DNA from: Acholeplasmataceae bacterium
GTDB taxonomy: Bacteria > Bacillota_I > Bacilli_A > Acholeplasmatales > Acholeplasmataceae
Assembly: GCA_018400755.1 (NCBI GenBank)
Contig: JAGYLU010000001.1
Location: 62,001-126,000, forward strand
Reading direction: 5' to 3'
DNA length: 64,000 nucleotides
Both the position numbers and the translations under genes were made by a program. Below, piece by piece: positions 5,746 through 61,144 of this stretch (its first letter is position 1; each line of letters begins with the position of its first letter). The notes beneath the pieces were generated by a model. That model was not told the DNA's origin. It searched no databases and saw only the letters and a program-made list of their open reading frames with translations.

Positions 5746-5779
5746 CCAAAAGCACCTTTCAAACATACCATCCATAGCG

Positions 5780-11040: not shown

Positions 11041-11088
11041 GTGCATTTCTCGATGAGATTACTCGATAAGTCATCTGTCATACCTCCT
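10993..11088 (-). pseudogene. Small ORF with a strong ribosome binding site, probably a gene start remnant
   Basis: A GAGGAGG sequence at about 11085-11091 (minus strand) precedes two overlapping ATGs. The frame starting MTYRVISSRNAR runs about 31 codons to a stop. The strong ribosome site and short frame suggest the 5' end of a broken gene. No family can be assigned. Confidence 0.25.
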
Positions 11089-11239
11089 CGTCCACCTGCC
11101 TAATTTATTCAAATGGGTAAATTTATCATTTTTGATTTCATGGCTGTTTTGTTAATCAGCTTTATGCGTCAATAAAAACCTCCGTATCAAAGTTTATGTT
11201 TATCGACAATGAAATCTTACTGCTTCCTTTCTTCCCACA

Positions 11240-11793: not shown

Positions 11794-11910
11794 TTCTCCC
11801 CTTTTCGCGATTAAATTGTCCTTTAACTCTCTTGTTACATGTTTATTATAGACCGAGGTTAAGAAAAAAGTAAATAGTGATTCGGTGTTTTAAAACACTT
11901 TTTGGTGCTT

Positions 11911-32620: not shown

Positions 32621-32689
32621 GTCATTCTCCTTGTTCATGTTGTGATCCATCAATATCCAGACCATCATCCTACACTTGTCTTGACGTTT

Positions 32690-40828: not shown

Positions 40829-40830
40829 CG

Positions 40831-42120: not shown

Positions 42121-43493
42121 AAAAATCAATGATCATCATAGTCATCTTGCTGATGCTTGTCATGCTCTCAGGATGCAAGAAAAGGAAAGATATCACCGGC
42201 AATGATGGTGATATTGAACTGACATATTATGTCTGGGGAAACAATACCGAAGTCAATGCCATCCAAAATGTCATCGATCTCTTCGAAGCAGAAAATCCTG
42301 GCATCTTTGTCAACATCGAAAGAGCGGGAGACAACTACTTCCTTGATCTCAAGATGAAATTCGCAAGTGGTCGTGGCCCTGATGTGTTTCTCATGGATCC
42401 GGGTGAGATCAGACCATTTCTGGATGAAGACCTGATTCAAGAACTCGATGATTATATTGCCCAAAGCAGCAGTTTATCACTTGATGACCTTTGGGATGTC
42501 AACAACGGTTACCGGTTTGACGGCAATCAGATGGGTCAAGGTAGCCTATATGCTTTGATTAAGGACTGGACTCCTGACTTCATGTTGATCTATAACAAGA
42601 GTCAGGTCAACGCGTATCGTAATCAGGTCCCAGATGCTTTTCCTTACCTTGAATCTGATGAACCGATGACATGGAGCCAATTCAGCGCATTTGCTTCGGC
42701 GATGACCATCGGAAGCGGGACAACCGTCACCCGTTATGGAACAACAATGGATTTCGTCCCCTACAAACACTTGTATGAATGGATCCAAATGAGCGGAGAG
42801 TCGATGTTCATCGAGAATCAAACTGTCTTCAACAGAGACGCACAAGGTGTGATTGATGCTTTCGAATTCTTCATCTCCCTTCAGGAAGGTGCAAATGCGC
42901 CCGCGCCTTACAAAGGATCCTCATCATTGGCGGTAGGCGGGGAACGGTTCACACTTGGTACCGTATCAAGCGTCTTTCTTGGCCGATGGGCTTTTGTTGC
43001 CTATGGCTGGAACAATGTCGATTTTGACATCGGAATTCTTCCTCCTCCAGTCCCCGACAACAGAGTCACCGACGAGCATGGCAAACGCTTGCCATATGCT
43101 GGTGTGTCCGGGATGATTGCCAATGCCATCAATAAGGACTCAGAACACAAAGATGCCGCGTTCAAATTCATCGAATTCTACCAAACTGTCGGTATGGAAA
43201 GCCTGGCAGAACTCGGATACAACATTCCGGGAAACAAAACAATTGCCCGTGATGTCTTCTTGTCGGTTGAAGATCCAAAGATCAGAAGCATCAATGAGAT
43301 CTTCCTTGATGCTGCCGTCTCCTACTCATATCCAATCGAATATAATCCTTATCTATCAACGACAACGATTGAAAGAATCATCGGTAGAAGCATGGGTTTG
43401 TACTTTGAACGACGAGAGGGTCTAACAACCATCGAAGCACTTCTTGATCAGATTGAACAAGATCTCAACGACGAAATACGTCGTATAAGATAA
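42117..43493 (+). CDS. Sugar-binding lipoprotein of the ABC transporter
   Basis: 458 residues. MKKSMIIIVILLMLVMLSGC is a lipoprotein signal (lipobox LSGC). The mature protein follows the family 1 solute-binding pattern: ELTYYVWGNNTEVNAIQNVIDLFEAENPGI, FASGRGPDVFLMDPGEIRPF, LGRWAFVAYGWNNVDFDIGILPPP and GMIANAINKDSEHKDAAFKF. Captures an oligosaccharide outside the membrane and delivers it to the two permeases. Starts inside the stop of the oxidoreductase gene. Confidence 0.92.
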   Translation: MKKSMIIIVILLMLVMLSGCKKRKDITGNDGDIELTYYVWGNNTEVNAIQNVIDLFEAENPGIFVNIERAGDNYFLDLKMKFASGRGPDVFLMDPGEIRPFLDEDLIQELDDYIAQSSSLSLDDLWDVNNGYRFDGNQMGQGSLYALIKDWTPDFMLIYNKSQVNAYRNQVPDAFPYLESDEPMTWSQFSAFASAMTIGSGTTVTRYGTTMDFVPYKHLYEWIQMSGESMFIENQTVFNRDAQGVIDAFEFFISLQEGANAPAPYKGSSSLAVGGERFTLGTVSSVFLGRWAFVAYGWNNVDFDIGILPPPVPDNRVTDEHGKRLPYAGVSGMIANAINKDSEHKDAAFKFIEFYQTVGMESLAELGYNIPGNKTIARDVFLSVEDPKIRSINEIFLDAAVSYSYPIEYNPYLSTTTIERIIGRSMGLYFERREGLTTIEALLDQIEQDLNDEIRRIR

Positions 43494-43513: not shown

Positions 43514-46051
43514 ATGAAACGAGTGCTCATTTTAGCCGTTTTCCTTGCGGGTGGCATGCTCTTCTTCGGCTTTGACGCCTCAGCTTCCGGTCCACCGGTG
43601 AGATTCTATGAACCGGCGACAGTGTTCTTTGAAGATTTCGAAGGTGACACTGAGATTGCCCATTATGATCATTTATTCACTGGGCATGAAGCGGATATCA
43701 CAACCGAGAATGCCATTTCGGGAACCCAATCCTTGACGACTTACGTGGTGAACGCACCCGGTCAATGGGTTGACACGTTGGCCATCAAAAAGGATTTCAC
43801 CCAAATCGAGGGTGCCAATGCCTTTTTGGTGACAGGTAAGATTCAGACCTCAAACTATCAGCAAATGATGGTTGAGGTCAGAAAGAATTATGATGGAAAC
43901 ACCGTTGAAAACATGCCTTATGAATTCATTCTGACCATCAATGAGGCAAACAAGACCGTTCAAAGGCCTTGTTTCAATGGTTGGTACAATGCCTGTACGA
44001 CACTTGATCTTCACAATGAACTCTTCAGCATTGATTCAGAGGGTGTCATCGATTTTGAGTTTGAGTTTTCCTCAGACGAACCGGTCACCTTCACATTCAG
44101 AGGCGTCATCGCCGACATCAATCAGGTTGCTGTGATGACTTTCGATGATCTTGGCATATCTGAAAAACCGGTCATGACTGAAGACTTCGAGGTTGTCATG
44201 GGCAATTTCTGGGAAGGGACCGCCTTTTGGGCAAATGCTGGTGGTATTGAAACCGATCCCGTGAAGGTTGTTTCCGGAACTCAGTCACTTCGTTATGACA
44301 TCAATGACTGGGTCTTAGGTGGCATTACAAACACCAAGTTCCAACCACCACAGGAAGTTCCTCTCAAATTGACCTTCGAAGTCAGAGCTGTCAATGGAAA
44401 AGTCTTTCTGATGGCGACACCTTGGAGCCCTCTTTATTTCGAGTTCCAATATGACTTCGAAACCAATGTTTTGTCTCATCCGGGGCTTGCTGCCGCATCT
44501 GCAACCATGATTGGTGATGTGCTTCATGCTGAGATGTTCTTCACCGTTCCGGCATCGGTTGACCTTCAGACGTTCAACTTCTACGGAAGCAAACTCAACG
44601 GTGAGGCACCTGGCCACTACATCCTTGACAACTTTGCGGTCGAAGTGCTTGAAAAAGACCCGATGGTCGTTCCGGAGTTCAATGTCGGATACGCCATTAC
44701 CAAAACGGAAGCCATGGCCTATCGTACCAATTTGCTCGCTGCTGACATTCTCTCTGTCTCTCTTGGTGAAGAAATACTCGATGAAAGCGCTTATGTCCTT
44801 ACGGATTACGGCTTTGCCTTCCAAAACGCCTATCTTGATGGATTGGAAGCCCAACTTGGCCTTGAATTCACGCTTGAGACAACATATGGGACTCATGTGA
44901 TCCTTTTGGATCTCTATGATGTCCGTCCAATCGTCGTTCCTGATTCGCTTGTTTACCAGAAATCCCTACAACAAAACGTTGCTCTTGAGCTGGATCTGGT
45001 TGACCATGCATTCGTTTCATTGTCACTAAACGGTGCTTTGATTGGTCAAGACAAGTATGTGATTGAAGAGGACAGTCTTGTGCTTGATGCCGCTTTGTTC
45101 CTCGCCCTCGAGAATGGTGAACACCTTCTATCTGTTATTTCCGAAGGGGGAACAAGAACACTGTCCGTCACAGTTGAAACCGGTGGACCCGCAGTCCTTG
45201 AAGCATCCTATGACTATCAAAAAGGTGTGGACAATGACCTCGACATCGGAATCAATCTGACATCCGACCATATCACTGGTATCAGTGTTTCTGAAACCCC
45301 ACTTCAACCTGTGGACTACACTCTGAGCGAAGGCATCCTGACCCTCAATGACTCATTCTTGATGACCTTACCTGCTGGTTTGACAGAGTTCACCATTGAA
45401 ACTAGTACCCCAGGTATCACTTTTGATTTCAGCGTAAATGTTATGGTCTTTGGACCAATCACCGATGTTACTTCTGTGACTTACGATGTCCATATAGACG
45501 ATATCCTGGAGATCATCATCGACTTGAATGGTATGGCCATCACCACTGTGCTCCTTGATGATGTCACGCTTGAATCAGGCTACGAATACATTCTCGGTGC
45601 GCTTGAACTTGATGCCTCTGTCTTTTCCAATCTTGCAATAGGCACTTACACACTTTCAATCAGCACTGCCGGTGGCACTGTCGAAATCGACCTGTCCATT
45701 GTGAACTCAGCCTTTCTAAACGATGTCATCATCATCACTGTTCCATCTTCAGTCGTGACAATCACCAAAGGTGCCACATATGATCCTCTTGCCGACATCA
45801 CCCACAGCAATGCTGTCGGTGACGTGACTGTCAGTCTTTCCGATCATTTGAATGTCAATACCCCAGGCCGTTACGTTGTCACTGTTGTCATATCAGATGA
45901 ACAAGGAAACACATCTTTTGCTTATTATGTTGTCCGTGTGTCTGGTGTTCTCTATTCCGTCACCATCACTTATGACATACTGACCAAAGAAAGGGGTGTC
46001 ATTGATGAAGCGATTCTTGATTCTGATCGTAAGCATCATTTCAGTTTTTAG
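43514..46051 (+). CDS. Secreted multidomain glycan-binding-like protein
   Basis: 845 residues with an N-terminal signal peptide (MKRVLILAVFLAGGMLFFGFDASAS). Residues ~35-375 contain two jelly-roll-like modules each marked by EDFE near the start and GTQSL about 40 residues later, a carbohydrate-binding pattern. Residues ~385-720 hold about four ~80-residue X2/Ig-like repeats (LxGxxL...Y...xLxLxxxFLxxLxxGxxxL). A DUF5011/Ig-like domain (~725-810) closes it. No catalytic motif or anchor was seen. AAGGAG precedes the ATG. The 3' end overlaps the next ORF by 47 bases. Likely displays or captures the glycan for the neighbouring enzymes. Confidence 0.78.
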   Translation: MKRVLILAVFLAGGMLFFGFDASASGPPVRFYEPATVFFEDFEGDTEIAHYDHLFTGHEADITTENAISGTQSLTTYVVNAPGQWVDTLAIKKDFTQIEGANAFLVTGKIQTSNYQQMMVEVRKNYDGNTVENMPYEFILTINEANKTVQRPCFNGWYNACTTLDLHNELFSIDSEGVIDFEFEFSSDEPVTFTFRGVIADINQVAVMTFDDLGISEKPVMTEDFEVVMGNFWEGTAFWANAGGIETDPVKVVSGTQSLRYDINDWVLGGITNTKFQPPQEVPLKLTFEVRAVNGKVFLMATPWSPLYFEFQYDFETNVLSHPGLAAASATMIGDVLHAEMFFTVPASVDLQTFNFYGSKLNGEAPGHYILDNFAVEVLEKDPMVVPEFNVGYAITKTEAMAYRTNLLAADILSVSLGEEILDESAYVLTDYGFAFQNAYLDGLEAQLGLEFTLETTYGTHVILLDLYDVRPIVVPDSLVYQKSLQQNVALELDLVDHAFVSLSLNGALIGQDKYVIEEDSLVLDAALFLALENGEHLLSVISEGGTRTLSVTVETGGPAVLEASYDYQKGVDNDLDIGINLTSDHITGISVSETPLQPVDYTLSEGILTLNDSFLMTLPAGLTEFTIETSTPGITFDFSVNVMVFGPITDVTSVTYDVHIDDILEIIIDLNGMAITTVLLDDVTLESGYEYILGALELDASVFSNLAIGTYTLSISTAGGTVEIDLSIVNSAFLNDVIIITVPSSVVTITKGATYDPLADITHSNAVGDVTVSLSDHLNVNTPGRYVVTVVISDEQGNTSFAYYVVRVSGVLYSVTITYDILTKERGVIDEAILDSDRKHHFSF

Positions 46052-46404: not shown

Positions 46405-49400
46405 ATGACATTGAAACGACTCGTCTCAATCATCGTTATGGTTATGGTGTATGCACTCGCAACGTCTTTTGTTGTGAGTGCATCACCCCCTTCGGGGATC
46501 TACCAGACGATACATGATGAAACATTTGAAACAGTCCAAGGTGCACTTCATGCCGAAACTGTTTATTGGTCGAATCACGCTGAAAGTGGTGTCTCGACAG
46601 TTAACGTCATTGACGGCAACAAATCCCTGAACTATGTCTTTGATGCATCTATTGGAACCTTTGTGACGCTGGGCGGTACAAGTGTCAACGCGATCGTCCT
46701 TAAAGATGATCTGTACCGCGTGTCCATGGAACTCAAAGGCGATGGTGTTGACTTTTTTAGTGTCAAGATCGAACAATCATCAACTTGGGATGCTTATCAC
46801 AGCTTCCATATCAATCCCAAAACCGGAAATCGTCTTGATGATGATGGCCTCCCGATCAACCTATCTGAGGACGAGAGTCTCTCATATTCCGAAGAGACTG
46901 GTGTCTCTTCCTTATCGTTTGTTTTCAAAGCACGTCCGACTCACCCAAGCTACATCATCTTTGATGCCAAAGTTTCGGACAGTGATCCGTTGATCGTCAT
47001 CGACAACGTCAAAATTGAAAAATATACGGAATCCCTTGACTTCAAGACCACGGTCGTTGATCATTTTGACAACGCTTCAGGAGAGATTCATCTGAACTCG
47101 GTCTTCTTTCTAAATGATGATGAAGGTACCACGGGATCCTTTGAAGATACACCAGGTATCGCCATTGAAAACCGCTCTCTGTTGTTTGGCATCCAAAAAG
47201 TAGGATGGGATATCCTTGGAGGAACACAAGGTAGTGAACTGAGCATTGAAGGCGGACACACCTATCAGGTCAGCTTTGATTTGCGTTTGACCAATGTCAG
47301 CCACTTTGTTGTGAAAGCCAAGAAGATTGCTGATGACACCAATATCTATGAGATGTATGTCAACGATCAAGGCCAAAGGTTACCAGGGTCTATTCCAATC
47401 ACGAATGTTGAAACGGTTACCGTTAGTGATTCAATCATCCACGTTTCATTTGAGTTCAGTTCTTTGATCAGTGACGGTATATATCTTTTCTTCGAAGCAC
47501 AAAGTCAGGCAGTTGGTGGCATCGTCGCAATTGACCATTTTGTAGTTCGCGAAGAGATTGTCAATCTTGAACAACACTCATATGGGATTTTTCATGAAGC
47601 CACATTCGAAGGGGTTCCTTCTGAAACTGATCCTCTTGTCCATTTTGGTCTGACAAATGGCTCCACAGCCAAACCATATGCTCTGACTGAGTCGACAGCA
47701 CTCCGTGGTGACCAGTCTTTGGTCTACGATGAGCTCACCCGTTTTCAATGGAATGAACTCGTCAAAACTGATCAGGTAGCCCTTAGAAACAACGCCTTCA
47801 AATTCCACATGAAGGCCGTTTTCGATGGTATCCTGAATGTCAAGATGTCGCTTACAGATGCTCATGGTGAGATCATCCATGAACTATTCTTTAACGCCGT
47901 CACTCTCAAACGGACGCAAACCTACGGCAAAGCATACATGGATCAGGGATTACTCATCGAAAACCGTGGGACACTCTATATTGACTATGTCTTCCCAGAA
48001 CTCGAAGATGATCTTGATCATGTATGGACACTCTCAGTCTATCCACAAGTCTCCGATGCCAGAGTCATCATCGATGACATTACCTTTCTTGTCAGAAAAG
48101 ATGCGCAATTGATCGATGAGACACTTCCTGCCATTCCTGGACTTCCAGAGAATGTCAGTGACCCAATCCCGACCGGAAAGGATGACGCTTACATGATTGG
48201 TTCGATGCTTTCAGGTAGTTCGACCATCGCACTTGTCGTGATTTCCTCAGTGTCGGTGATGTCGCTTGCTGCTGGTGTTGCCGGTGTGTGGCTCGTCATA
48301 AAGAAGGTCACGATCATTGCCAAAAAGGCTGTTTTCGCATCACTGATCGGCCTCGCATCCCTTGGTCTAGCATTCGGTACATTCTTTGGTTGTGCCAAGT
48401 TCGACCAGTCGGTCGAGGATGTACTTGATGACGCGTCCCCTAACATATCAAATTATCAATATGTCTATCCTGAGAAGTTATCAGGAAATCTGAACAATCC
48501 CGGTATGGGTTGGGTCACACTAGAAGAACCGACTTATGGCGGACACCCTGATATGGGCACTAGCGGACCACTTCCTGAAGTCTCAAATGTCTCTCTTTCA
48601 ACTTCATGGGCCAGAATCGAAGTTGAGGAAGGCGTTTATGATTGGACATTGATGGACCAAATCATTGATTATTATGTAGTAAGGGGGAAACGGATCAATT
48701 TCAGAATCGTCACCGATTCCTTGATGTTACCTAACACCTATTCTGGAACGCCACAGTGGCTATTTGACAAATATGACGTTGCTTATGAGATACATAACTA
48801 TACCATTCAAAGGACCTTGTCAGGACCTTCCGAGTCGTTGATACCCGAAACGAGGACTACCAACGTCATCTGTCACTTTTTTTGGAAGCTCTTGCAGACA
48901 AATACAAAGACAACACATTGATTGATGTCGTTGAGATCAGGGGATGGGGAAACTGGGGAGAATGGCATTCCGGATTCTCCTATCCAACCATTGAAAACCG
49001 TATGCATGCCCTTGCTGAAATCATTGATGCTTATGTCGATGCCTTCAAAGAAACGAACAAGTTGCTTGTTCTCTCAGCGGCATGGGATCCCTACTTCATG
49101 CCCTATGACAGCTATGATGATTACGTCACATATTCGGCTTTTGACTATCTATGGCGCTTAGACAATACAACTTTCCGAAGAGATTCCGGTGCCAATCTCA
49201 TGAACTATCCAACCGATGAACGGTTAATGTCCGATGCCTTTCGGTCAGGTAAGCGTCTCCCCTTGCTTGGAGAATACTCAAGTGGTGTCGAACAGGCTTA
49301 CAGTGAGGCATTTGGTTTTGATCTGATGGGTGGTATTGACGATATCTTGTTCAAGATGCGTCCCAACTATTCAACTGTCCTAGGCTGGGTCAACGCCAAT

Positions 49401-51194
49401 GTCGCCCGTGTCGTAGATGATGGTAACGGAAGCCTATGGGAACGCGGGAATGAAAAACTTGGTTATCGTCTCGCAGTCGATCTTGCGCGATTCCCAAACA
49501 AAGCAGAACAAGGCACTGATATGGACATTCTTCTATCGTTCTCAAATAGTGCTGTTGGCCGTTTTTGGTACACCCATCCACTAAAGGTCTCACTAATGGA
49601 TCAGGACAACAACGAAGTCTTTAGCTATGTCGAAGACAATTTCGATGCCAGAACATTTGTTTTGGGGGAAACCACGAACATCTACACAACAATGACCATC
49701 CCTGCTTCTCTTGCGTCGGGTGATTATACACTGGCTATATCCATCATCGATGAAACCGGAACACCTTCCATCAGGCTTGGGATGGCCGGAGAAATCGATG
49801 ACTCGATGGTTTATGCTCTTGGCTCGGTCAATATTGACACAAGCAACACAACACCTGATCCAGTTCATGAATCGATGTCATTTGATGATGCCAAAGCCTA
49901 CCCTTTCAAACCAAAGACGACCTATGCCATCACCTTTGATTACACCCCTCATTTTGAACTTGAAAACTATCATTTTGCTGATACCAACGGATATGTCTTC
50001 GCCCTGATGAGTGCCAAGGGTGGCGATGGTGCAACCACTGGTTACCATAAATGGCAGGATGTCTCTGGTGAAAAAGGCACAAAAACCATCCATGTCACAA
50101 CCCATGACCATGATGATTATGTTCTCAACATCGTTAGCGAAGGGTATGATGACATTGATATCCATGATGTCAAGATCGAGGTCATCAATGGGTACTATGA
50201 ACATTTCGAGGACTATGATTTCACGTTGATTGATGCTCTCTATCTACCCGTGAACAGTAGAAATGCCTATTTGACAAGAACGAACAACATCAAAGGCTCG
50301 CAAAGCATAGAAATCACATCCAATTCGCGCGGTGACAGCGAAGGTCTCAAATTCGACACCAACGTTTACGCCCTAGAGCCCAATACCAATTACACCGTCT
50401 CATTTCAATTCGAGTCGATTGCTCTTGTTGGCAAGGGTGGTTACATGTTTTTGAACCTGATTGATGAGTTATCGGATCAAAGGGAGCGGATTGGTGAATG
50501 GTACGAGCGAAACGATCGCGGTGTGACCACCAAAACATTCAATTTCACAACTGGATCCTCCACCAAGCAGACGATTGCCTGGGGTATCAAAAACGGTGGC
50601 GCTTATGTCATTGATGACATCATCCTCACCAAAAACCCAACTGGCACCATCGTTGACGGAGTTGATTATGGACACCCGCAAAACGAAAGACCAGCAATTG
50701 ATCTTATTGGGCTTGGTGAAACAGAAGGGTTCGAAGCATTCTCATTCAACGAAACCGCTTATGATTGGGGACAATTCGGATGGGGACAGTTCACTTTTGA
50801 TCCGCGGTACGTCATCACTGGTGATAGCTCTTTGATGGGGCAAATCGAACCCGAAGCGCTCGGAAATGAATGGTTCGAATTTGCAAGAAGCAAGCCTGAA
50901 GCGCTTGATCTTCAACCAAACACAACTTATGAAATCTCATTCTCATACCGGATTGTCAAAAATCCGATCAACAACGGTTTCTTCTACATCCTGATGCGCG
51001 ATTTAGGTGTCGGTCTTCCCAGTGACGTCGGATTCAACATCATCCCCAATGCATCACAAAACGACCTCATGGATATCAAGACCCTCACTGTTCAGATCAC
51101 AACCGGCAATCACGAGAACTATCAGTTCATCTTTGGCATGCATATGCTCGGAGAAATCGTGATTGACGATGTGCTGATCGAAGAGAAACCATAA
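46405..51194 (+). pseudogene. Giant surface DUF4832/DUF4874-type putative glycosidase, one frameshift
   Basis: About 1,596 codons in two frames. Frame 1 (46405-48800): signal peptide, then three jelly-roll modules marked by FE...SL, then two hydrophobic segments near 48230-48400 separated by KKVTIIAKK, then the start of the catalytic-like domain (NNPGMGWVTLEEP). Frame 2 (from about 48801 to 51194): the domain continues with FRVVDTRNEDYQRHLSLFLEALADKY, RGWGNWGEWHSGF and LPLLGEYSSG, then DUF4832-like beta region and two further modules. The shift lies between 48790 and 48810, where ACTATACC may carry an extra TA. Conserved Glu residues in GEWH and LGEY suggest a TIM-barrel retaining glycosidase; unproven. 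Confidence 0.7.
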
Positions 51195-51218
51195 ATAGTC
51201 TTAAGCCATTTAACAACA

Positions 51219-51253
51219 ACTTCCGGTGCGTGGTAAACAAACGCACCGGAAGT
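51219..51253 (+). terminator. Strong intercistronic hairpin
   Basis: A 13-bp perfect stem (ACTTCCGGTGCGT with ACGCACCGGAAGT) and 9-base loop lie 25 bases after the DUF4832 stop. No T-run follows, so it may be a partial terminator or a 3'-end stabiliser rather than a full stop. Confidence 0.6.
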
Positions 51254-51279
51254 CGTTATCGTCACAGGGAGGTTGACCT

Positions 51280-52148
51280 ATGATCTATGTCTTGGGAAGT
51301 ATCAATATGGACCTTGTCATACGCTCCGCCAGTTTGCCTCGTCAAGGTGAGACGGTCATTGGGAGCGGTTTCTTCATCAATCATGGTGGTAAAGGAGCAA
51401 ATCAGGCGGTCGCGGCAGCAAAATCAGGCGCTGATGTTGCCATGATTGGTGCCGTTGGAGATGATGCTTTTGGCGATCAGGCTCTGGAATCACTTGGGCA
51501 TCACAGCATCAACACCTCCCATGTCTTCCGTTTGGGACACCCTACTGGAGTGGCCTCGATCTGGATTACCGATCGTGATAACAGAATCATCATCGACCCA
51601 GGTGCGAACGCCTATCTGACAACGTGTATGGTTGATCATGGTCTCGCGCACGCCACCGAAAATGATACTCTGATTGTTCAATATGAAATTGATCCTCTCA
51701 TTGTCGGTTATGGTCTTCATCAAGCGAAACCAAGGGCATGACAACCCTCTTCAATCCCGCCCCTATGGGTCCTTTGTCGGATACGATCCTAGAAAACACA
51801 GACATCCTGTGCGCCAACGACCTAGAGATGAAAGCCATCAATCAAACCCTTTCCGGACAACTTCCAATGATCATCATCAACACCCACGGATCCAAAGGTG
51901 TATCTTTTGAGACCAACGGTTCGATCACCCGCATTGATGCCTATGATGTCACGGCAAGAGACACAACTGCCGCTGGTGACACCTTCATTGGGGCATTCAT
52001 CGCTGAATACACCCGTCTTCGCTCACTAGAAAAAGCCATCCGTTATGCAAACGCAGCCGCTGCGATTTCAGTCACTAGGGATGGTGCTCAAAAGAGCATC
52101 CCGACCCGTGAAGAGATCAATCGCTTTCAAGGAGGAGATCACTCATGA
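51280..52148 (+). pseudogene. Ribokinase-like PfkB sugar kinase, one frameshift
   Basis: MIYVLGSINMDLVIRSASLPRQGETV and GGKGANQAVAAAKSG (the PfkB glycine motif) begin a ribokinase fold. The frame breaks near 51735, where GCGAAACCAAGGGC lacks one base relative to an A-K-A-K-G reading. It resumes as MTTLFNPAPMGPL and continues with DTTAAGDTFIGAF, which holds the catalytic Asp. About 290 residues if repaired, normal for ribokinase. Phosphorylates a sugar, possibly ribose from the nucleoside hydrolase-like enzyme. AGGGAGG precedes the ATG. Stop overlaps the AraC start. Confidence 0.8.
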
Positions 52149-52936
52149 AAACCGAACTACAGTCATTTATCCACTACAGTCATCCTCCTCTCGACTATGT
52201 CCTTCCTCAGGCTCATAGTTGTTACGAAATCGTCTTTTACAAGAATGGCCATGGCCGAACCACCGTCAACAATGAAATCTACAATTATCATGACATGGAC
52301 ATGGTGATCATCCCTCCCAACATCGTCCATGATGAGAAATCAGAAGTATCCACTGAAGTCTATTGTGTGCTGTTCAAACTCGATGGAATCGATCTTCCAT
52401 CCGCCTTTTACACACATGAACCTGGCTTTTCGGCAGCTATTTTTGAAAAGATGGTTGAGATCAAAGAGTCATATTTGGCACGTGAGCCTTATTTTGAGTC
52501 CTATATCAGCAGTCTTATCCAGCAAATCGTCGTCATGTTGTTGCGTCATGAGAATGCGGCGACATCATCTGTCAGCATGGATGAGCAAAACAAACGGGCC
52601 ATTGAACTGTCCAAGAAACTGCTCAAAGAGAAAATTCACTTGAACACTGATTTTTCTGTCATTGCTGAAAATATAGGCTACAGTTATGACTACTTTCGGC
52701 ACTTGTTCACAGCCTATGTCGGTATGAGTCCCAAACAATATCAGCTTGAGCAAAAAATGAACAAAGCCAAAGATCTTTTGCTCAACACCGGCATGCCCGT
52801 CTATGAAATCGCCAAGATCTGTGGTTTCAGCAACGGTATCGCATTCAATGATTTCTTTAAACGCAAACTGAAAATCACTCCTTTGAGATTCCGACATCTC
52901 GGTCTAGAGCAAGTCGACAAAGTCCAATTAGAATGA
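52145..52936 (+). CDS. AraC-family transcriptional regulator
   Basis: 263 residues. N-terminal cupin sugar-sensing domain (HSCYEIVFYKNGHG...MDMVIIPPNIVHDEK) and C-terminal double helix-turn-helix: FSVIAENIGYSYDYFRHLFTAYVGMSPKQYQL and PVYEIAKICGFSNGIAFNDFFKRKLKITPLRFR. It sits inside the locus, so it probably controls the promoter at 38113 via the repeated ACCATTTTGATGA elements, since AraC proteins commonly bind direct repeats. GGAGG precedes the ATG, and the start overlaps the ribokinase stop. Confidence 0.9.
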   Translation: MKTELQSFIHYSHPPLDYVLPQAHSCYEIVFYKNGHGRTTVNNEIYNYHDMDMVIIPPNIVHDEKSEVSTEVYCVLFKLDGIDLPSAFYTHEPGFSAAIFEKMVEIKESYLAREPYFESYISSLIQQIVVMLLRHENAATSSVSMDEQNKRAIELSKKLLKEKIHLNTDFSVIAENIGYSYDYFRHLFTAYVGMSPKQYQLEQKMNKAKDLLLNTGMPVYEIAKICGFSNGIAFNDFFKRKLKITPLRFRHLGLEQVDKVQLE

Positions 52937-52943
52937 GGCCATC

Positions 52944-54038
52944 ATGACCCAAATCATAACACTGTTTGCCATTGAAGGCACACCCATCAGCTGTGAGCGA
53001 TACGGTGAGGGTCATATCAATGACACCTTTCTCGTCAAATGTGAGAACCCCAACCGGTCATACATCCTTCAAAGAATCAACAATTTTGTTTTCAAAGACA
53101 TCCCTTCACTGATGGAAAACTATGCCATGGTAACCTCATATATGGCCTATGTCTTGATCAATCAAGGGATCAATCCCCATGACCGAGTCCTTGAACTCAT
53201 ACCGACAACATCAGGTGATGCGTTCGTTTATTGCGACCGTGGGTATTTTCGGATGCTCCGTTTTGTCGCAGACTCAATCACTCTCCAAAGGGCTCAGAAT
53301 GCCACACAGATGATGCTTGCAGGACATGCGTTTGGAACATTCCAAAACCTTTTGTCGTCTCTAGACGCAAGCAAACTCCATGAGACCATCCCGGATTTCC
53401 ATCATACGCCCAAACGTTACTCTCAGTTTCTGGTTGCCCTTGAAAAAGCAACGCCTGAACGTCTAGGAAAGGCTTCTGACCTGATTACGTATGTGCTCAG
53501 TCAAAAACATGTCATCTCCATCATCCAAGATGCGCTTGATGACCAAAGTATCAAACTTAGGGTGACTCATAATGACACCAAACTAAACAACCTGCTCTTC
53601 GCACAAGACCTAGAATCGGTCAAATGTGTCATTGACCTCGACACCATCATGCCTGGAAGCTTGTTATTTGATTTTGGGGATGCAATCCGCTTTGGCTGCA
53701 ATACAGCCCCTGAGGATGATCCTGATTCCAACCATATCGCTTTTGATATGCCCTATTTCATCGCGTACGCAACAGGATTCATCAGTGCTTTGAAAGAAAC
53801 CTTGACAAACAAGGAAGCTTCCATGCTCGTCGATGGCGCGCTTATGATGACTTTCGAGGTCGGAATCCGTTTCTTGACTGACTATCTTCAAAACGATCCA
53901 TACTTCAAAACCCATCGTCCTGACCACAATCTTGACCGGGCATTGAACCAACTGACCTTATACCGAGTCATGCGTGAACAAGAAAGTGCGATGCGCCAAC
54001 AAATTGACGTGCTTAGAAGGAGTCTTCTTCATGGCTGA
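52944..54038 (+). CDS. N-acetylhexosamine 1-kinase-like (APH-fold) phosphotransferase
   Basis: 364 residues, near the length of bifidobacterial NahK. GEGHINDTFLV is the nucleotide-loop start, YILQRINNFVFKDI the lysine strand, VTHNDTKLNNLLF the Brenner-type catalytic loop (H-x-D-x4-N) and VIDLDTIMPGSLLFDFGD the metal-binding Asp segment. NahK phosphorylates GalNAc/GlcNAc at C1 in the galacto-N-biose/lacto-N-biose pathway. Here it sits immediately before a class II GalT, the same pairing as in that pathway. Overlaps the GalT start. Substrate inferred, not seen. Confidence 0.8.
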   Translation: MTQIITLFAIEGTPISCERYGEGHINDTFLVKCENPNRSYILQRINNFVFKDIPSLMENYAMVTSYMAYVLINQGINPHDRVLELIPTTSGDAFVYCDRGYFRMLRFVADSITLQRAQNATQMMLAGHAFGTFQNLLSSLDASKLHETIPDFHHTPKRYSQFLVALEKATPERLGKASDLITYVLSQKHVISIIQDALDDQSIKLRVTHNDTKLNNLLFAQDLESVKCVIDLDTIMPGSLLFDFGDAIRFGCNTAPEDDPDSNHIAFDMPYFIAYATGFISALKETLTNKEASMLVDGALMMTFEVGIRFLTDYLQNDPYFKTHRPDHNLDRALNQLTLYRVMREQESAMRQQIDVLRRSLLHG

Positions 54039-55497
54039 TCTATCAACATGCCTGATTGAGTACGCAATCAAATATCTGCATTTCAATCCAAAAGATCAGA
54101 ACAAGACATCAGGGATATTGTCATCACTGATTGGTTCTTCGGTTTCTTTTGATGCTGTTCCTGAGACACCAATCCCATTTATCAATGTGTTCAAAGACCT
54201 CATCAAGCGCGAATCTCCCATTCAGTTCGAACGTACTGTTGATCACATCTTCGCACTATTGACACCTTCTCAGCCCAATGTCAATCAGACGTTTTGGTCT
54301 TTATATGACAAGAGTCCCCAGACGGCAACCTCGTTCCTCTATACGCTTGGTCATTTGAACCATTATATCCAAAGCGACAAGATTCGTCTGAATCGACATT
54401 ACCACAGTCATGATCTGATCGTCACCATCAATCTCTCAAAAGAAGAAAAAGATCATCGGCGTGTGTTGGCAGACATGAAACAATCGGCATCTGTTTATCC
54501 AATGTGCCCCTTATGCTATGAGAACGTTGGCTATCCTGGAATAGGTGAACAACCTCCCCGGGAAACGCTCAGAGTGGCCCATATGACGCTTGATGGTGAT
54601 CCTTGGTTTATGCAGTTTTCGCCATATCCATATTTCGAGGAACATGCGATCTTCATCGATCGGATCCACCGCCCAATGAACGTTGATGTCAAAGCCTTGA
54701 GGCAACTTGTTGACATCGTTGATCTCTTCCCCCATTACTTTGTCGGATGCAATGCTGCGATGCCCATCACCGGAGGTTCAATCCTGTCACATGCCCACTT
54801 CCAAGGGGGCAAGAATGTTGGTTTCCCCTTGCTCAAAGCCCCTTTTGAACAGGCCTTTTCGATGCCTGATTATCCTGATGTGATTGCTGAAACGGTTGAT
54901 TGGCCGACCTTTGTCGTCCGTTTGACATCGGTTGATCGAGACCAACTCGTGAACGCATCAATGACCATCCTCAAGACTTGGAAATCCTTTGAGTCAAAAG
55001 ACATCAATCTGATTCCAGAAACCGATGGGGTACCTCATCATGGAATGGCGGCAATCATACACAAACCCGATGACCGTTATGTGATGCATCTGGTTTTGCG
55101 GTCGAACCTGACCAATCATGATTACCCTGAAGGCGTTTTCCATGCTCATCCAAAACATCATCACATCAAAAAGGAGGGCGTCGGTCTGATTGAAGCGCTA
55201 GGTATGTTCATCCTTCCAGGGAGACTGGCCTCGGTCATGGATACTTTCGTGAAGATGGGTAATCATCAGGATTTCATTGTTCTAAAAGAAGAACATCCAA
55301 TCCATGAGGATTGGTTCAACCGTTTCAAGACAATAACAACCTATGACCCAACAACCCTTCATCAATTGTTTCTAACCGAACTAGAGCATGTCTGTCAAGA
55401 CATTCTTCATCACATATCCGTGTTCAAAAACGATACGTCCGGTGTCCGTGCAAAACAACAATTCCTTTCTCTTATATCCGGAGGACAACATGTTTAA
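54031..55497 (+). CDS. galT: Class II galactose-1-phosphate uridylyltransferase-like enzyme (GalT)
   Basis: 488 residues, the length of Firmicutes-type GalT (class II). MCPLCYENVGYPG is the Cys pair block, ILSHAHFQGGKNVGFPL holds the H-x-H-x-QGG catalytic motif, and HGMAAIIHKPD is present. It exchanges UMP between UDP-hexose and Gal-1-P or HexNAc-1-P; coupled with the upstream kinase, a HexNAc-1-P substrate is likely. ATG 54031 follows AAGGAG and overlaps the kinase stop; the frame is open 57 bases upstream within the kinase. Confidence 0.9.
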   Translation: MADLSTCLIEYAIKYLHFNPKDQNKTSGILSSLIGSSVSFDAVPETPIPFINVFKDLIKRESPIQFERTVDHIFALLTPSQPNVNQTFWSLYDKSPQTATSFLYTLGHLNHYIQSDKIRLNRHYHSHDLIVTINLSKEEKDHRRVLADMKQSASVYPMCPLCYENVGYPGIGEQPPRETLRVAHMTLDGDPWFMQFSPYPYFEEHAIFIDRIHRPMNVDVKALRQLVDIVDLFPHYFVGCNAAMPITGGSILSHAHFQGGKNVGFPLLKAPFEQAFSMPDYPDVIAETVDWPTFVVRLTSVDRDQLVNASMTILKTWKSFESKDINLIPETDGVPHHGMAAIIHKPDDRYVMHLVLRSNLTNHDYPEGVFHAHPKHHHIKKEGVGLIEALGMFILPGRLASVMDTFVKMGNHQDFIVLKEEHPIHEDWFNRFKTITTYDPTTLHQLFLTELEHVCQDILHHISVFKNDTSGVRAKQQFLSLISGGQHV

Positions 55498-56806
55498 GCT
55501 GACATTCATTGGTGCTGGAAGCACCATCTTTGCCAAAAATGTGATTGGTGATATCCTGATCACACCTGAACTCAAAGACTATGAAATCGCACTATTTGAT
55601 ATTGATCCCACAAGACTTGATGATTCCTATCAAATTCTCTCTGCCATGAATAAGCGATATGGAGAGAGGGCTCGTATCTTGACGTATGCTGACCGTAAAA
55701 AAGCCCTTGACCAGGCGGATTTCATCGTCAATGCCATTCAAGTCGGAGGCTATGAACCAGCCACTGTCACCGACTTTGAGATTCCCAAACGATTCGGGCT
55801 TAGACAGACCATTGGTGACACCCTCGGGATCGGCGGCATCTTTCGAGCACTTCGGACCATACCGGTCTTGGAAGAGATTGCTCTTGAGATCAAAGAGGTG
55901 TGCCCGAACGCTTTGTTTTTGAACTATACCAATCCGATGGCGATTCTAACCGGATATCTAGAACGTTATTTGGGCATCAGAACCATTGGGCTCTGCCACA
56001 GTGTCCAGGCATGCGTGCCCGAACTCTTTAGAACACTCGAGATGGACGATCTGCTTGAAGGACATCAATCAACCATCGCTGGCATCAATCACCAGGCTTG
56101 GCTTCTGAACATCTGTGATCAAGACGGAACAGACCTTTATCCATTAATCAAGACAAGGTCCAAGAATCCAAACTATGACAAAACCTGGGATCTTGTCAGG
56201 CATGACATGATGGATAAGTTTGGATACTATCTGACAGAATCATCCGAGCACACCGCCGAGTATGTCCCTTTCTACATCAAATCGACACACCCAGAACTGA
56301 TTGAGAGATTCCATATTCCTCTAGATGAGTATCCAAGACGCTGTGAACAACAGATCAGAGATTGGAATGCCTTGAAAGTGACGATTCTTCAAGATGATCA
56401 CCTTGAACACGTTGCCAGCAACGAATACGCCCTTTCAATCATCAAAGCGGTCATCTTCAATGAGCCGGTCACCATTCACGGTAATGTCATGAATCAAGGA
56501 TTCATTCCCAACCTTCCAAAAGATGCCTGTGTTGAAGTTCCATGCACCATTGATCAAACTGGCATTCACCCCCATATGATGGATGCGCTGCCGCACCAAT
56601 GCGCAGCACTCAATATGACCAACATCAATGTTCAGCTTTTGACCATGGAAGGTGCGTACCAAAGAAACAAATCCATGATTGCTCAGGCCGCATTTCTGGA
56701 TCCCCATACCGGAAGTGAACTCTCGATGGATGAGATCAAATCTCTGGTTGACGCCTTATTCGATGCTCACCACCAATATCTTCCCCCATATAAGGAGATG
56801 CCATGA
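55490..56806 (+). CDS. GH4-family NAD-dependent glycosidase, alpha-galactosidase-like
   Basis: 438 residues. N-terminal dinucleotide fold FIGAGSTIFAKNVIGDI; NAIQVGGYEPAT; GIGGIFRALRTIP; NYTNPMAILTGYL; GLCHSVQACVPEL, where the CHSVQ Cys/His pair binds the catalytic Mn2+ as in MelA; and GINHQAWLL. GH4 enzymes cleave glycosides by NAD-assisted oxidation. CHSVQ favours alpha-galactosidase or alpha-galacturonidase over alpha-glucosidase. No signal peptide, so it acts in the cytoplasm on imported sugar. ATG 55490 follows CGGAGG and overlaps galT. Confidence 0.88.
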   Translation: MFKLTFIGAGSTIFAKNVIGDILITPELKDYEIALFDIDPTRLDDSYQILSAMNKRYGERARILTYADRKKALDQADFIVNAIQVGGYEPATVTDFEIPKRFGLRQTIGDTLGIGGIFRALRTIPVLEEIALEIKEVCPNALFLNYTNPMAILTGYLERYLGIRTIGLCHSVQACVPELFRTLEMDDLLEGHQSTIAGINHQAWLLNICDQDGTDLYPLIKTRSKNPNYDKTWDLVRHDMMDKFGYYLTESSEHTAEYVPFYIKSTHPELIERFHIPLDEYPRRCEQQIRDWNALKVTILQDDHLEHVASNEYALSIIKAVIFNEPVTIHGNVMNQGFIPNLPKDACVEVPCTIDQTGIHPHMMDALPHQCAALNMTNINVQLLTMEGAYQRNKSMIAQAAFLDPHTGSELSMDEIKSLVDALFDAHHQYLPPYKEMP

Positions 56807-58158
56807 TTACACACATCACATCAAATGAGACCCTTCTCTTGAACAAAGGCATGGGCTGGGTCATGCATACGTCCATCGAAAAGACCTATATCGATGACAA
56901 TGCCTTCATCCCAAATGACAAAATCCAAGTGGTCGCCCTTCTTTCAAGCTGGGCGAAACTTGAACCGATTGAGGGGACATTCGATTTTCAAGATCTGGAT
57001 GATGCCGTCGAACATTGGAGTCGTCTGGGTAAGGAGATCCATCTACGGATCTCAACCGATCCGATGATCTACCGACAAGAAGCCTGTGGGGTTCTCTAAT
57101 GGGTTTTTGAGACCTATCATGTCCCCTATCAGACAAAACTCATCTATGGCCTAGAAGCCAAGTTCCCTGATTACTTGCATCCCGTCTATCTGGCCAAGGT
57201 TCACCTGTTTATCGATGCCTTGTGTGCCCGTTACGAACGATATCCAAACATTGTTCAAATGGATTTGCGGGGTTATGGGGAATGGGGAGAATGGCATTCC
57301 GGATTCATGCATGCTGACCTTCCCACCCATGTCGAAGCCCTTCGTGCCATTATCCGAACTTGGGATCACGCGTGCAAAGGACGTATTCCGTTGGTATTAT
57401 CAGGGTCGTATGAATGGCGCCGTGACCAAAAACTGGACCTCTTCGCCCCTGCAAGCTATGATGCGTTCAAATATCAGTCCGCTTTTGATTATGCACTCAC
57501 CAAAGAAAACATCACGTTCCGTCGCGATGGTGTTGGCGGTGCCCTGAAAGTCAATGACTATCTGCTCTTTTTGGAATACTTCGAGAAACATCACCGCTTG
57601 CCGCTGACAACCGAGTTCTTTATATCCTATGATCGTCAGAAAGAGGCGGAAGACGGTGTCAGAGGATACTTTGCCGAAGATGCATTGGAAGAAGCACTTG
57701 CCCTGCATCCGAACTACATGATGCTTATGTGGGATAGTGAGGCATTTTTCCGGGAGCGACAAGATCTGATTGATCACGGACTCAGGCGCATGGGTTATCG
57801 GTTATATCCAAGTACCATTCAGACAACAAAAACCGGTGATATGATCACACTCAGACATACGTGGTCAAATGATGGTGTCGGACGTCTCTATCTTCTTCAT
57901 GAGGTTTTATTCAAACTCACCGATGAGGAAGGACATCACATATCAACCACCGATGATCAGGTGAACTTAAGCGATGTGACCGAGGCACAAAAACAGACGT
58001 ATATGACCCATCTGCGAACTGACGGTCTCAAAGGTGCTATCACTCTATCTGTTGGTATCCGTCTCAAACAGGATGGAAGCATGGTCAAATGTCCGCTTGA
58101 AAATGTATCGGATGACGGTTTTTACCCGCTCATCACCCTTGATCACTTGAATTCATGA
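56803..58158 (+). pseudogene. Cytosolic DUF4832-type putative glycosidase with one in-frame TAA
   Basis: 452 codons in a single frame, interrupted only by TAA at 57097-57099 (codon 99). LNKGMGWVM matches NNPGMGWVT of the surface paralogue, LLSSWAKLEPIEGTFDF matches LSTSWARIEVEEGVYDW, RGYGEWGEWHSGF matches RGWGNWGEWHSGF, and LPLTTEFFISY matches LPLLGEYSSG. Conserved Glu163 and Glu271 are candidate acid/base and nucleophile. The paralogue has GTPQW where this reads GVL-stop-W, so a Gln codon may have become TAA. No signal peptide. A product beginning at an internal start after the stop would lack the first barrel strands. Overlaps the GH4 stop; NagB follows. Confidence 0.75.
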
Positions 58159-58165
58159 GGAAAGG

Positions 58166-58927
58166 ATGACAATCGACATGCGTGTGATGATTGGTACAAA
58201 AACCATCATTGATGATCAGGTATCAAAGATCATCATCAATCTTGTCAACACCAATCCAAAGGCCGTCTTAGGGCTTGCGACAGGGTCAACACCTGCTGGA
58301 GTTTATGCTGCTCTGGTCAACGATCACATTACCCATCGGACTGATTATCATCTGATCAAGACCATCAATCTTGATGAGTATGCGAATCTTGATACTGACC
58401 ATCCCAACAGTTATCGCACCTATATGAATAACCATTTATTTGATCACATCAATATCCGACTCGAGCATACCCATTTCCCCGATAGTACCCCATTTGTTGC
58501 TTCGTTTCTCGAACAACACCCTGTGAATCTTCAATTACTGGGCATTGGTAACAATGGTCACATCGGATTCAATGAACCTGGGACACCTTTCGAGAGCAGT
58601 GTCAGACTTGTTTCGTTATCAGATGACACCCTCAGTCAAAATGCCAGATACTTTGAGACACCGGATCAGATGCCAAAGAAGGCATACACACTCGGTATTT
58701 CAGACATCCTCAAAGTTCATCAAATCATCTTGATTGCCACCGGACCTCACAAAGCCAGAATCATCAAGCAGATGATTGAAGGTCCGATCACACCACAACT
58801 TCCAGCATCTGTCCTAAGACGGCATCCTGATGTCACCGTTTATCTTGATCATGATGCCGCAGCTTTACTTGATCAATCACTTGATATCTATACCAAAGGA
58901 GGGGTTGCACTTGACATCATTGCCTAG
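58166..58927 (+). CDS. nagB: Glucosamine-6-phosphate deaminase (NagB)
   Basis: 253 residues. GLATGSTPAGVY (phosphate loop), TINLDEYANLD (catalytic Asp), and GIGNNGHIGFNEPG (His/Glu active-site loop) are complete. Converts GlcN-6-P to fructose-6-P and ammonia. A GalN-6-P relative (AgaS/AgaI) is possible but the motifs are nagB-like. AGGAAAGG precedes the ATG. NagA, its usual partner, is absent; a PIG-L deacetylase lies two genes downstream. Confidence 0.9.
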   Translation: MTIDMRVMIGTKTIIDDQVSKIIINLVNTNPKAVLGLATGSTPAGVYAALVNDHITHRTDYHLIKTINLDEYANLDTDHPNSYRTYMNNHLFDHINIRLEHTHFPDSTPFVASFLEQHPVNLQLLGIGNNGHIGFNEPGTPFESSVRLVSLSDDTLSQNARYFETPDQMPKKAYTLGISDILKVHQIILIATGPHKARIIKQMIEGPITPQLPASVLRRHPDVTVYLDHDAAALLDQSLDIYTKGGVALDIIA

Positions 58928-60293
58928 ACTTCCTCTTGATCCGGATTTCAAACCTATCGCTTTGATCATGAAAGACATGATGGAACAAGCCCAATCTTCT
59001 GAACAAAAACGTGTCATGAGGATTGCCATCCAGCAAGAATTACGAGTTTGTGCTCATTGGATTCCTCTTCCCGATGCATGCACCATGAGTTCGGATCACG
59101 ACCGTTTCATCGAATCCTACGTCAAGACCCTCTTATGGTTGTACGGAGGTCACACGATCTATGTTGACGCCCCCGAGCGGATCTTCAACCGAATCAAACA
59201 AGCCTTCTCACTCTCAGGAAACCGTTCATTTGATGTCAAATTCATGAGTCAAATCTATCAAAGACCTTTTGATGTCATCAAGTCCGATGATCCGATGCGA
59301 TTTGAGACAAATGACCAATCGTCTTCTATTGGAAGGCACATGGATGGATGTCGGATTGGCTTCGATGCAGGGGGAAGCGACCGAAAAGTGTCCGCCGTGA
59401 TGAATGGGGTCGTCATCTATAGCGAAGAAGTGACATGGAGTCCAAAGACAGAATCGGATCCAAACTACCATCTTGAGGGCATCATGTCAGCACTTTCAAC
59501 CGCTGGTTCCAAATTACCTAGAGTGGATGCTGTAGGCATCAGTTCCGCAGGTATCTACATCGATGATGAGACAAGAGTCGCGTCTCTATTCATGAGTGTT
59601 GGACCAAGCGATGTCGATAAGGTCAGAACCATCTATAGGGATGCTGTTAGAAACACCTGGGGTGATGTGCCTTTCGTTGTCGTCAATGACGGTGATGTCA
59701 CCGCATTGTCTGGGTCAATCGGATTGAACCGAAACAACATCCTCGGCATTGCGATGGGCACAAGTGAGGCGGCGGGATATATCAACCCTAAGGGATCTAT
59801 CACCGGTTGGCTGAATGAACTTGCGTTCGTCCCAATTGATATGAATCCCGAGGCTGTCAGAGATGAGTGGTCAAACGACATCGGTTGTGGTGTCAAGTAT
59901 CTGTCTCAGGATGCGGTGATCCGATTGTCCAAACGGGCCGGGATTGACATCAATGACAATTTGACGGCGGCTCAAAGTCTAGAATATGTCCAAAAATTGT
60001 TGCGTGAGGGAAACAGAGAAGCCGAAGAGGTATTCAAAACCATCGGAGTCTATCTTGGCTATGCCATTCTTTACTACCATCATTTCTATGGCATGGATGC
60101 CTTGCTGATTCTTGGAAGGGTTACTTCCGGACTAGGTGGGGATTTGATTCTCTCAAACGCAAAAGCAGTGCTTGAACATGAGAATCCTAGTCTCTTCAAT
60201 CGCTTGTTTATCACACTCCCAGATGAAAAAAGCCGTCGCATCGGACAGTCCGTGGCTGCGGCAAGTTTGCCCAAGATCGGAGGCATCAAATGA
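58911..60293 (+). CDS. ROK/BadF-like sugar kinase with N-terminal extension, TTG start
   Basis: About 461 residues from TTG 58911, chosen because AAAGGAGG (58896-58903) sits seven bases before it; upstream frame extension runs inside nagB. Residues ~150-461 form an ASKHA kinase: RIGFDAGGSDRKVSAVMNG (phosphate 1), VGISSAGIYID, VVVNDGDVTALSGS (Asp motif), GIAMGTSEAAGYI (phosphate 2, atypical) and GRVTSGLGGDLIL. The first ~145 residues are a helical domain not found in simple ROK kinases. Likely makes an amino-sugar 6-phosphate for NagB; specificity unknown. Overlaps nagB by 17 bases. Confidence 0.75.
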   Translation: MTSLPRLPLDPDFKPIALIMKDMMEQAQSSEQKRVMRIAIQQELRVCAHWIPLPDACTMSSDHDRFIESYVKTLLWLYGGHTIYVDAPERIFNRIKQAFSLSGNRSFDVKFMSQIYQRPFDVIKSDDPMRFETNDQSSSIGRHMDGCRIGFDAGGSDRKVSAVMNGVVIYSEEVTWSPKTESDPNYHLEGIMSALSTAGSKLPRVDAVGISSAGIYIDDETRVASLFMSVGPSDVDKVRTIYRDAVRNTWGDVPFVVVNDGDVTALSGSIGLNRNNILGIAMGTSEAAGYINPKGSITGWLNELAFVPIDMNPEAVRDEWSNDIGCGVKYLSQDAVIRLSKRAGIDINDNLTAAQSLEYVQKLLREGNREAEEVFKTIGVYLGYAILYYHHFYGMDALLILGRVTSGLGGDLILSNAKAVLEHENPSLFNRLFITLPDEKSRRIGQSVAAASLPKIGGIK

Positions 60294-61144
60294 TTTCCTT
60301 GAATGTTCATGCTGACCTGTTTGTCCCTAATGGTGATGACCCAAACACCATCATCCCAAAAACAACACACATGGCGATTGCCGCCCATCAAGATGATATT
60401 GAGATCATGGCTTATGATGGCATTCTCAAATGTTTTCACAACAAAGAATACTCATTTTTTGGTGTGGTCGTCACCGATGGTGCTGGAAGTTCACGAATTG
60501 GTCCCTATGGGGCATACACGAATGAAGAGATGGCTGAAATCAGAAAGGCTGAGCAACGAAAAGCTGCTGTGATTGGAGAATATGGGGCTTTGGCACAATT
60601 GAACTATCCCTCATCAACCATCAAGGATCCCAATGACCTAGAATGTATTGATGACCTCACCCATCTGATCAAATTTGCCAAACCAGATGTGATTTACACG
60701 CACAATCTTGCTGATAAGCATGATACTCATATCGGGGTTGCTGTCAAAGTGATCAAAGCGATCAGGTCTTTGTCTGAAGATGAACGCCCAAAATCATTAT
60801 ATGGATGCGAGGTATGGCGAAACCTTGATTGGCTTCAGGATGAGGACAAAGTGGTTTTTGATGTCAGTGATCAACCAAAACTTGCTCAAGATCTGATTGA
60901 AGTCTTTGACTCACAGATTTCTGGTGGTAAGCGTTATGACGCAGCGACCCTCGGCCGAAGACTTGCCAATGCGACGTATCATCAGTCACATCAATCCGAT
61001 CTTGGCAATGCTTTGATCTTTGCGATGGATATGACACCTCTGATCCAGGATGACACACTTGATATCACAAGATATGTACTATCATATATCGATCGGTTCA
61101 AGAACGATGTTGAGCGAAAAATCAAATCCCAAATCTCCAAATAG
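60290..61144 (+). CDS. PIG-L/LmbE-family deacetylase
   Basis: 284 residues. AAHQDDIEIMAYDG is the zinc site (AHPDDxE with Gln for Pro), DGAGSS follows the second strand, and YTHNLADKHDTHIGVAVKVIKAI gives the distal His ligand (HxxDxHxxH-like). Family enzymes remove N-acetyl groups from GlcNAc conjugates or free GlcNAc. Coupled by ATGA to the kinase gene; with no nagA in the locus, this is the best candidate for the deacetylation step. Ends just before a strong terminator. Confidence 0.85.
   Translation: MISLNVHADLFVPNGDDPNTIIPKTTHMAIAAHQDDIEIMAYDGILKCFHNKEYSFFGVVVTDGAGSSRIGPYGAYTNEEMAEIRKAEQRKAAVIGEYGALAQLNYPSSTIKDPNDLECIDDLTHLIKFAKPDVIYTHNLADKHDTHIGVAVKVIKAIRSLSEDERPKSLYGCEVWRNLDWLQDEDKVVFDVSDQPKLAQDLIEVFDSQISGGKRYDAATLGRRLANATYHQSHQSDLGNALIFAMDMTPLIQDDTLDITRYVLSYIDRFKNDVERKIKSQISK

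Follow-up and report, generated by a model that had tools for sequence, protein, structure and literature searches.

DUF4832 proteins of an Acholeplasmataceae operon: an invariant acidic signature in a likely glycosidase barrel, possibly of the inverting, beta-amylase-like type

SIR_1591, a DUF4832 protein of the Streptococcus intermedius pel operon, is the only tested member of its family. The recombinant protein disperses aggregates rich in alpha-GalNAc, as PelA does (mBio 2025, PMC12345266). A search of the text of that paper for the word "catalytic" gave no match, and the catalytic residues of SIR_1591 are therefore apparently not named there. Pel itself is an alpha-1,4-GalNAc polymer (PMC12022489). 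An initial annotation of the DNA studied here had described its DUF4832 proteins as a possible uncharacterised glycosidase family, a description that is only partly true, because of the activity reported for SIR_1591, although the family has hardly been studied.

The closest described folds are those of the GH14 beta-amylases, which act by single displacement with inversion, and of the retaining enzymes of clan GH-A, such as GH42, GH35 and GH5. Clan GH-A enzymes typically cleave beta-glycosides. GH14, GH42 and GH35 all employ one Glu of beta-4 and one Glu of beta-7, and the distance between the two carboxylates is about 5 Å in retaining and about 10 Å in inverting enzymes. For beta-amylase, E186 and E380 are named as catalytic in the titles of PDB entries 1v3h and 1v3i. 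The GH14 references used here were the enzymes of soybean (1BYB) and B. cereus (1B90); the B. cereus sequence was identical to 1b90, and the soybean sequence, compared with 1bya along 495 residues, differed at two positions, neither of them in the motifs.

The window, i.e. the whole stretch of 64,000 nucleotides that was analyzed (positions 62,001 to 126,000 of contig JAGYLU010000001.1), encodes two DUF4832 proteins, one with a signal peptide and one without. Both matched DUF4832 (PF16116), with 53.5 and 29.4 bits against a curated cut-off of 29.2, and no match to DUF4874 (PF16173) was reported for either in Pfam at E 0.01. Both also exceeded the cut-off of PF02449 (GH42), with weak matches restricted to profile positions 31-81 and 14-70 of 376; this match lies in the N-terminal part of the catalytic region and the PF16116 match in the C-terminal part. 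The open pieces of the two proteins align with 30% identity over 269 positions (BLASTP, E 4e-25), in agreement with the earlier observation that the paralogues align across the domain.

The surface protein (46405-51194, plus strand, as are all features below unless stated otherwise) is a single gene that is now found in two frames, ORFs 46405-48921 and 48882-51194. Its start was placed at 46405 because the intact orthologue of Haloplasma contractile (L013:8000-12754), with 39% and 59% identity to the two window pieces, is one chain of 1585 aa. A signal peptide and a beta-sandwich ectodomain are followed by two hydrophobic segments, the catalytic domain and C-terminal beta-sandwich modules. The (beta/alpha)8 and DUF4832 beta domains, with the PF02449 and PF16116 matches, occupy 48445-49865. 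They contain the putative catalytic acid, Glu of GNWGEWH (48960-48962), an Asp of FRRD at the end of beta-6 (49182-49184) and the putative catalytic base, the beta-7 Glu of LPLLGE (49272-49274). By eye, the two hydrophobic segments, which lie between ectodomains in the middle of the protein (48180-48420, and likewise in the Haloplasma protein), could form a membrane hairpin.

The cytosolic protein was assigned to 56803-58158, with its start at 56803 and not at the TTG at 57175. Its corresponding residues are Glu163 of GEWGEWH (57289-57291, putative acid), Asp242 of FRRD (57526-57528) and the beta-7 Glu271 of LPLTTE (57613-57615, putative base). The two glutamates had been described as about 108 residues apart in both proteins; both are present, and the separation is 108 residues in the cytosolic copy and 104 in the surface copy.

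Neither domain is intact. In the surface copy the reading frame shifts at some point between about 48798 and 48830, and the domain therefore spans the end of ORF 46405-48921 and the start of ORF 48882-51194; the cytosolic gene is interrupted by an in-frame TAA at 57097-57099. There is accordingly a considerable possibility, somewhat short of even, that both genes are decaying pseudogenes that give no active enzyme in this organism, which is compatible with any of the readings of the family given below. Decay would also account for the broken ribokinase gene of the same operon, and it is consistent with the intact surface and ribokinase genes of Haloplasma and with 5-7 kb of low-GC DNA in the window that is nearly without ORFs. 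Against it, the frames are open for hundreds of codons outside the single lesions and have kept both Glu and the Asp, and the assembly is a draft of 239 contigs, so that assembly errors are possible.

Several other parts of the window were noted. The region 4921-11910, about 7 kb, has mostly 34-40% GC, compared with about 46% around it, is nearly devoid of ORFs longer than 100 aa and looks decayed; neither Rfam nor tRNA searches gave a hit there or elsewhere in the window. The stretches at 29-31 kb and 33-34 kb are likewise low in GC. A minus-strand ORF at 11911-12885 has a start that reads, by eye, like a macro (ADP-ribose-binding) domain, and a minus-strand protein at 31040-32668 carries List_Bact repeats and an FGE-sulfatase domain. 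Upstream of the operon (34541-36536), a minus-strand GGDEF protein adjoins a protein with a B12-binding domain.

To compare the family, DUF4832 loci above the cut-off were drawn from Mycoplasmatota/Bacillota, Clostridia, Bacteroidota, Actinomycetota, Hydrogenedentota and Asticcacaulis, and 36 relatives, which represent at least four phyla, were aligned. Gly-x-Trp-Gly-Glu, the Asp of RRD or HND and the beta-7 Glu were invariant in 36/36 sequences, with 95-132 residues between the two Glu. Most sequences had been located by a GxxGE-like pattern at each locus, which could favour the first Glu; two loci missed by this pattern (L042 and L046) likewise retain it. Since both Glu are invariant in all 36 sequences, their conservation is far beyond chance, and the alignment confirms a real family-wide active-site signature in DUF4832. 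The conservation expected earlier for the two Glu was thus observed, and the Asp is a third invariant acidic residue that was absent from the initial annotation.

The Asp could itself be one of the catalytic partners, paired with just one of the two Glu, as it is no less invariant than they are and lies at the mouth of the barrel, on the C-terminal end of beta-6. Its context, however, varies by clade (RRD versus HND or FND), as in a binding residue, and the precedent of GH14, GH42 and GH35 is a pair of beta-4 and beta-7 Glu, which makes such a role improbable. The three invariant acidic residues also bear on whether the family is enzymatic at all. Barrel folds can lose activity, and a surface location with carbohydrate-binding-like modules would suit a barrel protein that binds carbohydrate or is non-enzymatic in some other way. 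This is very improbable in view of the family-wide invariance of the three residues and the reported activity of SIR_1591. A glycosidase role, as had been proposed initially, is supported by the conserved acidic set, the barrel and that activity, and is likely for the DUF4832 proteins, being partly shown already for one relative.

In the tree the family forms two deep clades, A and B. The cytosolic copy clusters with a protein from Hydrogenedentota (97/97); the surface copy clusters with Haloplasma (100/98). As the window proteins are placed in different parts of clade A, they are old paralogues, and a recent local duplication was rejected. A phage origin was also rejected: a scan of viral contigs with the window type of DUF4832 gave no relative, and a scan with the Bacteroidota type gave one. 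Members of clade B match DUF4874 (PF16173); there the first Glu falls within the DUF4874 match, and the Asp and the second Glu fall within DUF4832. Because the models show a single barrel, the Pfam boundary between DUF4874 and DUF4832 splits one catalytic domain. By eye, the DUF4832 proteins of about 690 aa at L003, L004 and L008 have an N-terminal alpha/beta-hydrolase-like half (GHSLGG) fused to the DUF4832 barrel.

For both the cytosolic protein (pLDDT 70, pTM 0.69; Gln was put in place of the in-frame TAA, solely to model the fold) and the intact Haloplasma domain (L013:9986-11380; pLDDT 79, pTM 0.80), the fold predicted by AlphaFold2 was a (beta/alpha)8 barrel and, C-terminal to it, a beta-sandwich. 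In both models the first Glu (E176 in the Haloplasma model) lies about 7 residues past beta-4, the second Glu (E280) is on beta-7 and the Asp (D250) is at the C-terminal end of beta-6, while the active-site loops are of low pLDDT. The TIM barrel expected initially, with its Glu after beta-4 and its Glu on beta-7, was therefore obtained. In VIA-align, GH14 beta-amylase was the top match of the cytosolic model (Z 20.4, versus 17.6 for the best other family) and of the Haloplasma model (Z 21.4, versus 19.6 for GH35 and 19.3 for GH42), with a margin over GH35 and GH42 in the latter of less than 2 and some GH14 rows tied with them. With Foldseek the top match was beta-amylase for the weaker, cytosolic model and GH35 for the better, Haloplasma model. 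A shared fold by itself shows no function.

The beta-4 motif of the family (GPWGE, GNWGE or GAWGE) can be likened to GPAGE of beta-amylase (soybean E186, B. cereus E172), and the beta-7 motif (GGE, LGE or similar) to GENAL (soybean E380, B. cereus E367). All members have such motifs, on the strands that carry them in beta-amylase. Profile alignment with hhalign to GH14 gave a best E of 0.0013 with a probability of at most 19%. In three alignments, all weak, the beta-4 Glu was paired with E186/E172; of three segment alignments, two paired the beta-7 Glu with E380, not significantly. No match to PF01373 (GH14) was found among the Pfam matches of the window proteins at E 0.01, and a search for GH14 proteins from the same class, sought for a better profile, found none. 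Differences from beta-amylase include an identity of 10-12%, a Glu-Glu spacing of 194 residues in beta-amylase versus 104-108 in the window proteins, the extra C-terminal beta-sandwich of the DUF4832 proteins and an operon that is not related to starch.

The initial annotation had assigned the proteins to a retaining glycosidase of clan GH-A (GH42/GH35/GH5-like), in which the Glu of GEWH would be the acid/base and that of beta-7 the nucleophile. This assignment draws on the PF02449 matches of both window proteins, on a GH42 profile match in the PDB (E 1.7e-9) that is stronger than the similarity to GH14, on the high structural scores of GH35 and GH42 and the first Foldseek rank of GH35 for the better model, and on the beta-7 Glu, whose position is equally compatible with a GH-A nucleophile. 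The profile matches to GH42 and GH5, however, span beta-1 to beta-4 at most. In HMM alignments of low identity, what stands opposite the clan GH-A Asn-Glu of GH42/GH5 is Arg-Gly or a position without conservation; the Glu that is invariant in the family comes several residues later. The DUF4832 proteins thus share the TIM barrel, the beta-7 Glu and a local profile match with the GH42 and GH35 beta-galactosidases, but are without Asn-Glu at the end of beta-4. GH14 was above GH35 and GH42 in VIA-align for both models, and the substrate of SIR_1591 is an alpha-GalNAc polymer. A retaining GH-A mechanism consequently seems unlikely, although it is the chief alternative. An inverting, beta-amylase-like reaction is the likelier of the two, favoured because GH14 is the nearest fold in VIA-align, both motifs resemble those of beta-amylase and the Asn-Glu is absent.

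The reading that we favour, with about an even chance of being correct, is that DUF4832 is a TIM-barrel glycosidase with the Glu of GxWGE and the beta-7 Glu as its pair, inverting and GH14-like, and probably cutting an alpha-galactosyl or alpha-hexosaminyl glycan; the conservation, the predicted fold and the operon are shown, and catalysis, inversion and substrate are inferred from them. DUF4832, or elsewhere DUF4874 together with DUF4832, would be one glycoside-hydrolase barrel domain to which a beta-sandwich is attached at the C-terminus. The proton donor would be the invariant Glu of GxWGE, in the loop after beta-4, and the base that activates water would be the invariant beta-7 Glu. The reaction would invert configuration in a single displacement, as GH14 enzymes do, and the invariant Asp after beta-6 may serve in substrate binding or positioning.

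The streptococcal relative is in line with this inverting reading, since the alpha-GalNAc-rich polymer dissolved by SIR_1591, and the alpha-linkage of Pel, suit an alpha-acting, GH14-like site. SIR_1591 has in common with the window proteins the Pfam domain DUF4832 and a TIM barrel with a 7-stranded beta domain; Glu/Asp/Glu was compared by way of the sequences of pel-linked relatives. Two genomes share the gene order pelDEADAFG-cotH-VTC-DUF4956-DUF4832, and their DUF4832 proteins carry Glu/Asp/Glu. By gene order SIR_1591 belongs to clade B (DUF4874 plus DUF4832), whereas the window proteins belong to clade A and are encoded in another operon that has no link to pel. PelG had no match in the window's genome or the Haloplasma genome, both draft assemblies, and a Pel role was rejected for the window proteins for want of PelG in their genome. 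A wider proposal would make DUF4874/DUF4832 a new family of inverting alpha-glycosidases in a GH14-like clan, remotely sharing the active site of beta-amylase and acting on alpha-linked polymers of galactosamine or galactose, which was recruited for the release of Pel biofilms and, in the clade of the window proteins, for glycan uptake at the surface and inside the cell; this proposal is doubtful.

Upstream of the DUF4832 genes, the operon encodes a nucleoside-hydrolase-like protein (IU_nuc_hydro in Pfam; 38170-39078), the orthologue of which is first in the Haloplasma operon. It is followed by two ABC sugar-transporter permeases (39075-40828; 68-69% identity to Haloplasma, 43-47% to the Clostridia locus L014), a GFO/IDH/MocA oxidoreductase (40714-42120), the extracellular solute-binding protein of the ABC importer (42117-43493) and a secreted surface protein with a CBM_X2 domain (43514-46051; 29% identity to L013:5612-7972). 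Between the two DUF4832 genes lie a PfkB ribokinase-like gene split into two frames (51280-52148), an AraC-type regulator (52145-52936), an N-acetylhexosamine/galactose 1-kinase of the NahK type (52944-54038; E 1.7e-83 to N-acetylhexosamine 1-kinase in the PDB), a UDP-glucose--hexose-1-phosphate uridylyltransferase (GalT, class 2; 53974-55497) and a GH4 alpha-galactosidase (55388-56806; PRK15076 over cut-off). A NagB-like deaminase, a sugar-kinase-like protein and a PIG-L deacetylase follow (58166-61144); the middle one of these (58830-60293) had no Pfam, NCBIfam or PDB sequence match.

Haloplasma has kept the operon, and Clostridia and Leifsonia have kept part of it. The co-linear Haloplasma genes encode the nucleoside-hydrolase-like protein, two permeases, GFO/IDH, solute-binding and surface proteins, DUF4832, ribokinase, AraC and GH4, all with 29-69% identity to their window counterparts. 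The Haloplasma ribokinase is intact and passes the NCBIfam ribokinase cut-off, and GH4 exceeds the alpha-galactosidase cut-off in both organisms. Haloplasma carries a NahK homologue elsewhere, together with an epimerase-like gene and GalT. An ABC importer is found beside DUF4832 in the window, in Haloplasma and in one Clostridia genome, and a distant permease lies nearby in Leifsonia. The window, Haloplasma and Leifsonia all have a divergent nucleoside-hydrolase-like gene along with DUF4832; in Leifsonia it lies at L015:13100-14053, next to DUF4832.

The bifidobacterial LNB/GNB operon comprises NahK, GalT2 and an ABC importer. The window likewise has a NahK-type kinase and GalT by an oligosaccharide ABC importer, but here DUF4832 and GH4 occupy the places of the hydrolases. 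GH112 phosphorylase gave no match in the window's genome, and the control likewise gave no match anywhere. The NagB-like and PIG-L genes suggest amino sugars. The nucleoside-hydrolase-like gene and the ribokinase gene point to a pentose component and hint at a substrate that contains ribose. Our best guess for the substrate is an alpha-galactosyl or galactosaminyl glycan. The surface DUF4832 copy would cut such an extracellular glycan, probably alpha-galactosyl or alpha-hexosaminyl, and the ABC importer would take up the fragments. The GH4 enzyme, the cytosolic DUF4832 enzyme and the NahK/GalT and NagB/PIG-L enzymes would then complete the breakdown of the fragments.

If the favoured reading is true, it would give a function, a catalytic pair and a mechanism to two Pfam domains of unknown function, which would be halves of one barrel. 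The mechanism of the newly found Pel-dispersing enzyme of streptococci would become directly testable, and the operon would point to a glycan-uptake system in Haloplasma-like bacteria.
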